From Marinitoga sp. 38H-ov (GTDB taxonomy: Bacteria > Thermotogota > Thermotogae > Petrotogales > Petrotogaceae): a stretch of DNA of 38,726 nt. Positions 10,317 through 12,254 of this stretch are shown in pieces. Location: assembly GCF_011057715.1 (NCBI RefSeq), contig NZ_LNGH01000027.1, forward strand, positions 1 through 38,726. The letters are read 5' to 3'. The translations under genes and the position numbers were made by a program. The notes under the pieces are model-generated. The model had not been told where the DNA came from. It ran no database searches and worked only from the letters and a program-made list of their open reading frames with translations. Position 1 is the first letter of the stretch; each line of letters starts with the position of its first letter.

Positions 10317-11896
10317 CTAAAATTTTTGTATAACATTTAATAATTTTTTTCTTTCAAAGCCACTTTCATAATACCAGTAAGCTAAAGTTGCTGGCATTTT
10401 TTTTAATGAATATTTTTCTACAAAATCCCTTAAAAAATCTGGTGTTTCTATTCTTATATTCCATTTAATATCATATCTAGAATAATTTCTTATATATACA
10501 TCTATGTATTCTTTTTCATGCTTATTTAATTCATAATAATAAATGTTTATAAATTCATTATATGAACTTTTCTTCATCTTTGAAAAGAAATGATCTACTA
10601 AATTTTTTCTTGCATTAATAAACTCATTACCTTTAATCATTTCTATTATAAACCTTTTTATGCTAAAATCATCGACAAAATTTAAATTTTTTATTTGTAC
10701 TATATCTATTTTAGGTTTATTAATACATGCAATATATGTATTAAAAAATAATCTCTTTCTTTCTTCAACATTCATTTTTTCTAACTTATTAACGCTTTCT
10801 TTAAAAGCTTTTTCTATATATATTTTCCCATACTCATTAATAATAGCTTCTGGTGAATTAATATCTGGAACCAAATTTAAACCCAAAAGGATTTTCTTTA
10901 ATGTGTCTCCCTTTATTTCTAATACCTTTCCATTTATTATACCAGAAAGACTTTTTCGAGAAACATGTATTTTTTTAGATGCTTCTGATATATTAGCTAT
11001 ATTATTTTTTATACAATTTCTTAATTCTTCTGTATTTATATATGTAGATTTCTCGCTAATAATAAACTTTCTTAAAATATTAAACATTGATTCATAATTT
11101 TCTTTAGAATTTCTTTTTCCACTTTCAGGTAATTTTTCCCAGAAATAATTAATAATAGGTGCGTATGAATATAAACTTTCTATATTCCATTTATTAATCT
11201 CAAAATAAGTATCAAAAAATGTAAAATGTTTTTCATTATTTTCAAAATAATATCCCATATAATACATCAATTCATTTGATAATTTAATAGCATTATTTAA
11301 ATCATATTCCTTTAAATACCATGACCAATTATTTAAAGAACTAACTATACCTATTCTATGTGGTATTTTTTTCGATAATATATATGCTTTTTTAAAGTAT
11401 TTCCAGGCTTCATTAAAATCTTTTTCATTAACCTTTTTTCTTCCTTTTCCAAGATCTATAAATACCTCTGTAGAAGGGTCCATTTCATATTCTTTTCCCC
11501 ATAATCTTGTCTTTTCATCCAAATTAATTATATTTTCCACATTAATCAAAACAGATGATACTAGTTTTCTAGACTTTTTTGGAATATCAGATAATTTTTC
11601 TTTTAAAAATAAATATTTTTTTTCACATTTACATAATCTCTTAAATATGCTAAATAATATAATTCTTTTGCTAACAATAAATATTTTAATGTTTTTGTAT
11701 TTTTATATATTAAACCTTTTTCCACCTCTTCTAATGCTTTCCTTTTTTCATTTTTCCAACTAAATTCCAAACTTTTAAATAGATGATACCATCCATTATT
11801 TTTTTTAGTTCGTAAAATCATTAAATTAAGAAATGGTTTTGCAAAAGATCCATAATCAGAAATTATCTCAAAAATCTCTCTATTTTTTTCATTCAT
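10317..11896 (-). CDS. TPR-like protein with internal XRE-like HTH, split by a -1 frameshift in an A8 run
   Basis: Two adjacent minus-strand frames (11896 to 11603, and 11640 to 10317) form one gene: the first ends soon after an A8 run (11616-11623), and stepping back one base there gives a continuous reading of about 526 residues. The joined product aligns along its length with the gene at 27407-28765, including across the junction. The N-terminal half is helical and TPR-like. A module at about residues 294-342 ([20 protein letters not shown] followed by [11 protein letters not shown]) looks like an XRE-type HTH and is missing from the paralogue. The C-terminus has [14 protein letters not shown]. 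The start at 11896 has GAGGTG six bases upstream. A divergent small secreted-peptide gene follows. Function unknown; a peptide-responsive regulator is a hypothesis. The frame break may be a sequencing error, mutation, slippage or programmed shift. Confidence 0.7.
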
Positions 11897-11967
11897 AATA
11901 TACACCTCTTTTAGTTATTATACTACTTTTTTTCGCAAATGGGAAGTTATGAACCTAAAAAACATTA

Positions 11968-11994
11968 TGTTACAAAATGCTATATTTTTGTACA
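11968..11994. promoter_or_regulatory. Imperfect inverted repeat between the HTH gene and the peptide gene
   Basis: TGTTACAAAA (11968-11977), seven bases, TTTTTGTACA (11985-11994), near-complementary arms in the 199-bp divergent intergenic region. It lies upstream of both predicted promoters and is a plausible operator for the neighbouring HTH protein; no experimental or comparative support is available here. Confidence 0.4.
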
Positions 11995-12036
11995 GTTAGA
12001 ATAGATATATAATAAGAGTTTTAGAGGTTGTTAAAG

Positions 12037-12064
12037 TTGAATGTCATTTGTTTTAGTGTATAAT
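12037..12064 (+). promoter_or_regulatory. Promoter of the 52-aa peptide gene
   Basis: TTGAAT (12037-12042), 16-bp spacer, TATAAT (12059-12064), about 31 bases before the ATG at 12096. Confidence 0.7.
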
Positions 12065-12095
12065 ATAATTGAAAATTAGAAAGGAGCGTGATACT

Positions 12096-12254
12096 ATGAA
12101 AAAAATTACAAAAACAATCGTTATTTTAACTTTCTTATTCACTGTATTATTCTCAACTGTATCATTTGCCGGTCCTGATGATTATTCTGATTCCACAGAA
12201 ATAACTACAAATTCCGTTGTATTTACATTAAAGGCTTTTGATATAAATAAATAA
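12096..12254 (+). CDS. Small secreted peptide precursor (52 aa)
   Basis: A tiny gene with its own promoter, ribosome binding site (AAGGAG ten bases before the ATG) and terminator. Residues 1-25 form a textbook Sec signal peptide: MKK start, hydrophobic core, TVSFA before a likely cleavage. The remaining 27 residues begin GPDDYSDSTE and end with a hydrophobic/basic stretch (FTLKAFDINK); there is no Cys. It stands divergent to the TPR/HTH gene, the arrangement seen in peptide-pheromone systems; that role is a hypothesis. I chose 12096 over an upstream in-frame codon at 12069 because of the ribosome binding site. Confidence 0.75.
   Translation: MKKITKTIVILTFLFTVLFSTVSFAGPDDYSDSTEITTNSVVFTLKAFDINK

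Follow-up and report, generated by a model that had tools for sequence, protein, structure and literature searches.

Does a pair of divergent genes in a Marinitoga genome, one for a large helical protein with an internal helix-turn-helix (HTH) and the other for a tiny secreted peptide, form a peptide-signalling system? Cytoplasmic TPR pheromone receptors are known from the Firmicutes, their phages and plasmids. The pair studied here lies in a contig of 38,726 nucleotides from Marinitoga sp. 38H-ov (NZ_LNGH01000027.1), analysed over its full length and hereafter called the window; its features are collected in Table 1. A first-pass annotation, made from the sequence without database searches, had read the pair as a circuit analogous to the RRNPP systems in a Thermotogota-like host, and was right about the host.

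Table 1. Coordinates of the two gene pairs and associated features in the window
Feature	Position	Strand	Remarks
Receptor-like gene, TPR-like / HTH / TPR-like, ~527 aa when joined	10317..11905	-	Orthologues L053, L068, L070 and L071 uninterrupted
Central Cro/C1-type HTH	10881..11030	-	Pfam HTH_3/HTH_19/HTH_26; helical unit at residues 174-223 of the modelled 410 aa; conserved alignment block
N-terminal half (candidate sensor), diverged allele	11081..11896	-	Nucleotide identity to G001 77%, elsewhere in the gene 97.5%
T8 (coding-strand A8), -1 shift site in this assembly	11616..11623		Orthologues in frame
Divergent intergenic region	11906..12095		190 bp from GTG 11905, 199 bp from ATG 11896
ATGGGAAGTTAT, candidate operator	11939..11950		Conserved in six Marinitoga-group genomes, single change in one
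ATGTTACAAAAT box, candidate operator	11967..11978		ATGTTAC invariant in six genomes
Putative peptide-gene promoter, TTGAAT-16-TATAAT	12037..12064	+	No change in the -10 region across six genomes
52-aa signal-peptide gene, candidate pheromone precursor (MKKITKTIVILTFLFTVLFSTVSFA / GPDDYSDSTEITTNSVVFTLKAFDINK)	12096..12254	+	
Intrinsic terminator-like stem, 3' of the peptide gene	12253..12271	+	
HD-GYP domain protein, candidate output	12291..13613	+	HD_5, E = 6e-48
Second receptor paralogue, 452 aa, HTH lost	27407..28765	+	
Signal-peptide gene (42 aa) adjoining the second paralogue, convergent	28783..28911	-	

The receptor gene and its broken frame

In this assembly the receptor gene consists of two open frames on the minus strand (11905-11603 and 11549-10317), which a single -1 shift joins. 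Four same-genus orthologues are in frame at the shift site and none of them carries the A8 run, so the undamaged receptor would have about 527 residues. Translation is likely to start at the ATG at 11896, with a GTG at 11905 as the alternative. The break at the A8 run may be an error, slippage or a mutation. The M. lauensis orthologue (L134) was left out as a full-length model because of several frame breaks, which are probably long-read indels.

Short ORFs that by eye resemble remnants of an IS200/IS605 transposase and TnpB lie at 8670-9499 and 9521-10336 of the window. The GH4 glycosidase gene next to them encodes 271 aa, and its orthologue at L053 about 478 aa.

Domain architecture and predicted fold

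Pfam matched HTH_3 weakly in the window receptor (E = 6e-4) and gave no TPR match for that protein. A genus alignment searched against PDB, NCBIfam and Pfam likewise matched the HTH alone, and TPR models emerged only with the phylum-wide alignment, whose members matched TPR_12 (best E = 1.5e-9; 5 of 25 family members), HTH_3 (8e-8) and HTH_26 (4e-8). Weak Pfam matches of the receptor to TAN, Wzz and Sdh5 were judged to be chance. AlphaFold was applied to a full-length relative and to the 410-residue part of the window receptor, and both models (pLDDT 90, pTM 0.87-0.90) were all-helical superhelices with the HTH at the centre. Foldseek matches to the receptor model, all at E > 0.001, were peptide-binding TPR proteins, namely LGN, KLC1, RapF with peptide (4i9c) and PlcR with PapR (2qfc; TM 0.46 by target length); the 410-residue part alone gave weak matches. 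As modelled, the fold class is TPR-like, in an architecture absent from the solved proteins that we found. The internal XRE-like HTH and the TPR/HTH fold proposed in the first-pass annotation both held up in these searches and predictions, and the order that it described, TPR-like part first and HTH in the middle, proved to be conserved across the family.

Full receptors are mostly 520-600 aa long and the HTH-less paralogues about 450-490 aa. Many paralogues in the window's genus lack the HTH, among them RiPP-linked ones, and for the many RiPP-linked Marinitoga paralogues that have lost it DNA binding by the HTH is impossible; such proteins may act in the manner of Rap or pair with an HTH-bearing relative. 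Loss of the HTH among Marinitoga-group paralogues is stepwise (L013, L014, L015, L052, L063 and L064 versus L016, L065, L059 and L066), with complete deletion in some and absence of only the recognition-helix region in others. Runs of Thr codons in the N-terminal part of the L013, L014, L015 and L016 receptors vary in length among otherwise near-identical paralogues and are possibly a hypermutable microsatellite.

The small gene and the shared spacer

The divergent 52-codon ORF has a ribosome-binding site (RBS), -10 and -35 elements, a terminator and a Sec-like signal, a call that rests on a rule of hydropathy, charge and RBS. Everything that had been ascribed to this tiny gene at the outset (its own promoter, signal peptide and terminator) was thus seen again. 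Across six genus sequences we obtained a pN of 0.15 and a pS of 0.48 (pN/pS about 0.3), which indicates that the small gene is translated and under purifying selection. Its product contains no Cys. Propeptides in the family are 35-73 aa long, within the 10-100 aa used as a criterion for RRNPP systems.

The spacer drifts outside ATGGGAAGTTAT, ATGTTAC, and the promoter and RBS of the peptide gene, and the ATGGGAAGTTAT box overlaps the putative -35 element of the receptor gene. The divergent spacer of the first-pass annotation stood at the length given there, as counted from the ATG, but its near-palindrome proved weak: no inverted repeat was better than the set with 71-81% complementarity, in which 150-167 nt separate the arms. 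The boxes, being conserved, make better operator candidates.

Pairing across the Thermotogota

The window's genome contains six receptor paralogues, two of them inside the window, and a signal-peptide ORF of 42-52 codons adjoins every one, divergently in five cases and convergently in one (28783-28911). Next to this convergent peptide gene lies a subtilase gene (Peptidase_S8; 29036-30745) with a lipoprotein-like signal, whose product could process the signal of the second pair.

The receptor family was present in 57 of the 101 Thermotogota genomes covered by one search and in 57 of the 98 covered by a second, overlapping one, often in multiple copies. We then scored neighbouring small ORFs for charge at the N-terminus, a hydrophobic core, a hydrophilic tail and an RBS. 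Phylum-wide, 59 ORFs in the divergent slot fitted this rule against 0.28 expected from the same loci, a comparison in which the rule was fixed after the first pairs were known and the loci, many of them orthologues, are non-independent. The strict rule was positive for 58 of the 84 testable receptors, spanning several family-level groups, and relaxed inspection added L074, L077, L081 and L090; for about a quarter of receptors a peptide gene was not recognised even under relaxed rules, and some lineages had no visible one. The rule returned no candidates in 400 kb drawn at even spacing along one complete genome of the window's genus. The small signal-peptide gene that the first-pass annotation predicted beside relatives is therefore a common companion of the family. 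A fifth peptide match (C8:3788) was discarded, since its neighbours are SecD- and YajC-like genes and no receptor is among them.

A motif scan of the genomes of 84,980 species found relatives in Thermotogota and on two short contigs of metagenome-assembled genomes (MAGs), and scans of plasmid and viral collections found no receptor relatives; contig scans used a nine-row alignment set, the 25-row alignment being too diverse. The two MAG contigs, labelled Dictyoglomaceae and Ca. Lithacetigena (L142, L144), carry receptor fragments that may reflect transfer or misbinning. Receptor remnants made up of the two ends only were seen near intact copies (G081:C1:1324426-1324870 and G074:C9:179744-180156).

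Genes downstream of the peptide gene

At many loci the peptide-gene strand continues with short Cys-rich or precursor-like ORFs, then a radical-SAM/SPASM protein and then ABC transporters, and the genes met most often beside the pair are those for RiPP precursors and maturases. Pfam confirmed the Radical_SAM domain in downstream proteins, and the radical-SAM proteins tested matched NCBIfam RiPP maturases or related SPASM proteins, although with scores below the equivalog cut-offs. Juxtaposition of the pair with a RiPP precursor and a radical-SAM/SPASM maturase is thus a trait of many family members, though not of the window's copy at 10317. There the HD-GYP gene directly follows the peptide gene, as it does in all five orthologous loci of the window's lineage, so that the output in this lineage may be c-di-GMP turnover.

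All three full receptor copies of genome G081 stand at the head of operons with radical-SAM genes. In this receptor region (L107/L108) there are genes for HicA, radical-SAM proteins, Cys-rich peptides and ABC transporters, a combination also reported for the stationary-phase locus TM1298-TM1336 of T. maritima, which the region appears to match. That stationary-phase RiPP locus is not known to have an assigned trigger. The locus and its peptide TM1316 were reportedly described by Frock et al. in 2013, a study cited in PMC13157175. The abstract of that study reportedly makes no mention of receptor and signal-peptide pairs at operon heads. Genes for HicA- and HicB-like proteins adjoin the receptor/peptide pair at L107 (4392-5214). 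A link to the T. maritima peptide TM0504 was considered and rejected, as the full receptor copies all lie at 1.33-1.35 Mb whereas TM0504, by its number, should lie elsewhere, and the papers searched made no mention of it.

Peptide-receptor co-variation and possible allele exchange

In a set of 49 pairs, similarity between mature peptides tracked similarity between the receptors' N-terminal halves (partial r = 0.59; 0 of 2000 permutations) but not between their C-terminal halves (0.06), a co-variation that is partly expected because the peptide gene adjoins the receptor 5' end and is physically linked to it. The same tracking held in two sets taken separately, the Marinitoga-group paralogues and a second group of genera.

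Comparison of the window with its nearest relative, G001, revealed a mosaic. The flanks are 97-100% identical and the HD-GYP gene 99%, and identity is similarly high in the HTH and C-terminal half (97.5%) and in the last 20 codons of the peptide gene (97%). Between these, identity falls to 77% in the receptor N-terminal half, 86% in the spacer and 79% in the signal-plus-linker part of the peptide, where the differences are at about the between-species level. An exchange of sensor and signal alleles would produce such a pattern, which makes the N-terminal half the candidate sensor and the residues just after the signal (GPDDYS versus DPLDTT) candidate specificity determinants. Receptor paralogues elsewhere are likewise mosaic between N- and C-terminal halves. 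With such alleles, domain swaps could test receptor-ligand specificity.

Proposed circuit and alternatives

We consider it probable, from the genomic evidence, that receptor and small gene constitute a two-gene peptide-signalling unit of the quorum-sensing type. At gene level its parts can be read directly: the pairing and orientation of the genes, the HTH, the TPR-like fold, selection on the peptide, the operon context and co-variation with the N-terminal half. From these we infer that the peptide is exported, taken up again and bound, and in which direction regulation runs. The precursor would be exported by the Sec route through its N-terminal signal, leaving a 20-28-residue acidic, Ser/Thr-rich peptide that is perhaps trimmed further. 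This peptide would build up outside and then be re-imported, plausibly by an oligopeptide ABC importer; the window's genome encodes four SBP_bac_5 proteins. Inside the cell it would occupy the groove of the cytoplasmic receptor's TPR-like N-terminal half and alter how the central HTH is seated on the conserved boxes in the shared promoter region. As a result, the peptide gene (autoinduction) and the operon that follows it would be transcribed differently, with radical-SAM RiPP genes as the output in most lineages and the HD-GYP gene in the window's lineage. We give about even chances to a broader proposal, a Thermotogota-wide peptide-signalling superfamily independent of RRNPP, in which a central HTH separates a fast-evolving, peptide-sensing N-terminal half from a more conserved C-terminal half, recombinational exchange of sensor and signal generates pherotypes, and RiPP production by radical-SAM enzymes in hyperthermophiles comes under high-density control.

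Could the large protein instead be a conventional HTH regulator that controls the divergent operon, with the secreted peptide an output rather than a ligand, serving the RiPP cluster as a factor for the envelope, immunity or export? The peptide gene does head the operon, and RiPPs are made and exported by many operons of this kind, but the same pair also precedes the HD-GYP gene without any RiPP, and other genes besides, which argues that the peptide goes with the receptor and not with one cargo. Since, in addition, the peptide sequence tracks the N-terminal half of its partner, that half and the peptide front diverge jointly within conserved flanks and the partner is TPR-like, we regard this explanation as unlikely. 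The frequency of RiPP precursors and maturases among the neighbours would also suit a receptor that senses the modified RiPP or its leader, with the signal-peptide gene as an accessory (a decoy or a translational-control leader ORF). This is highly improbable in view of HD-GYP loci where the small gene occurs without any RiPP gene, of its conservation at the protein level (pN well under pS) and of a Cys-free product with a clear Sec-type signal.

A different question is whether the window copy is decaying, so that its receptor gene has become a pseudogene and function is left only in the small peptide and HD-GYP genes. The question bears on that copy and not on the system, and decay would be compatible with two-gene signalling. 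The -1 frameshift at A8 points that way, as does the shortened GH4 gene downstream, beside the transposase-like remnants. Yet the remainder of the frame is kept (84% identical and 93% similar to G001), orthologues are intact, and A8 runs are frequent sites of assembly error and transcriptional slippage; decay of this copy therefore seems possible but rather doubtful. Signalling by the two genes remains our preferred reading of the family.

Comparison with known systems

Judged from sequence, the Thermotogota pair is best read as an RRNPP-like autoinducing circuit with an unrelated and larger receptor that carries its HTH in the middle. As in the RRNPP systems (also RRNPPA: Rgg, Rap, NprR, PlcR, PrgX, ComR, AimR), a gene for a small precursor, here putatively secreted, adjoins that of a cytoplasmic helical TPR protein, many receptors have an XRE HTH and copies are multiple. 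The adjacency expected of such systems is seen in the 59 slot ORFs, and their TPR content in the TPR_12 matches and superhelical models. By the hydropathy, charge and RBS rule the propeptides would be Sec substrates, a property for which the RRNPP criterion uses SignalP. The divergent gene order is that of Rgg/SHP groups I and II (PMC13361665). Fold and pairing thus support the analogy drawn in the first-pass annotation, in which ligand binding and regulation would follow the same logic. In contrast, RRNPP transcription factors carry the HTH at the N-terminus and the TPR domain at the C-terminus, whereas here the HTH lies between two TPR-like halves; the RRNPP criterion sets receptors at 250-500 aa, and most Thermotogota receptors are longer; RRNPP receptors are known from Firmicutes, the present ones from the phylum Thermotogota; and the PDB search gave no sequence match of the receptor to RRNPP members. 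RRNPP_detector applied five criteria, one of them this receptor length, to Firmicutes and viruses (PMC10075063), and with this scope and limit would have missed the Thermotogota family. The open-access journal articles searched contained no description of a Thermotogota receptor/peptide system. For life near 80 °C, AI-2 is the usual signalling candidate (PMC6022435). If our reading is true, peptide quorum sensing extends to the deep-branching, mostly thermophilic Thermotogota, near 80 °C, and the T. maritima stationary-phase RiPP locus gains a testable controller.

Of the known circuits, the pair appears most like the streptococcal RaS-RiPPs, which are Rgg/SHP-controlled radical-SAM RiPP loci (PMC13361665, PMC8092268). 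In both, the receptor gene is divergent to a pheromone gene, and the same locus contains genes for a RiPP precursor, a radical-SAM maturase and an ABC transporter. The streptococcal loci differ in using an SHP, whereas the Thermotogota pair, in another phylum, combines a Sec-type signal with an unrelated receptor family and Cys-rich precursors.
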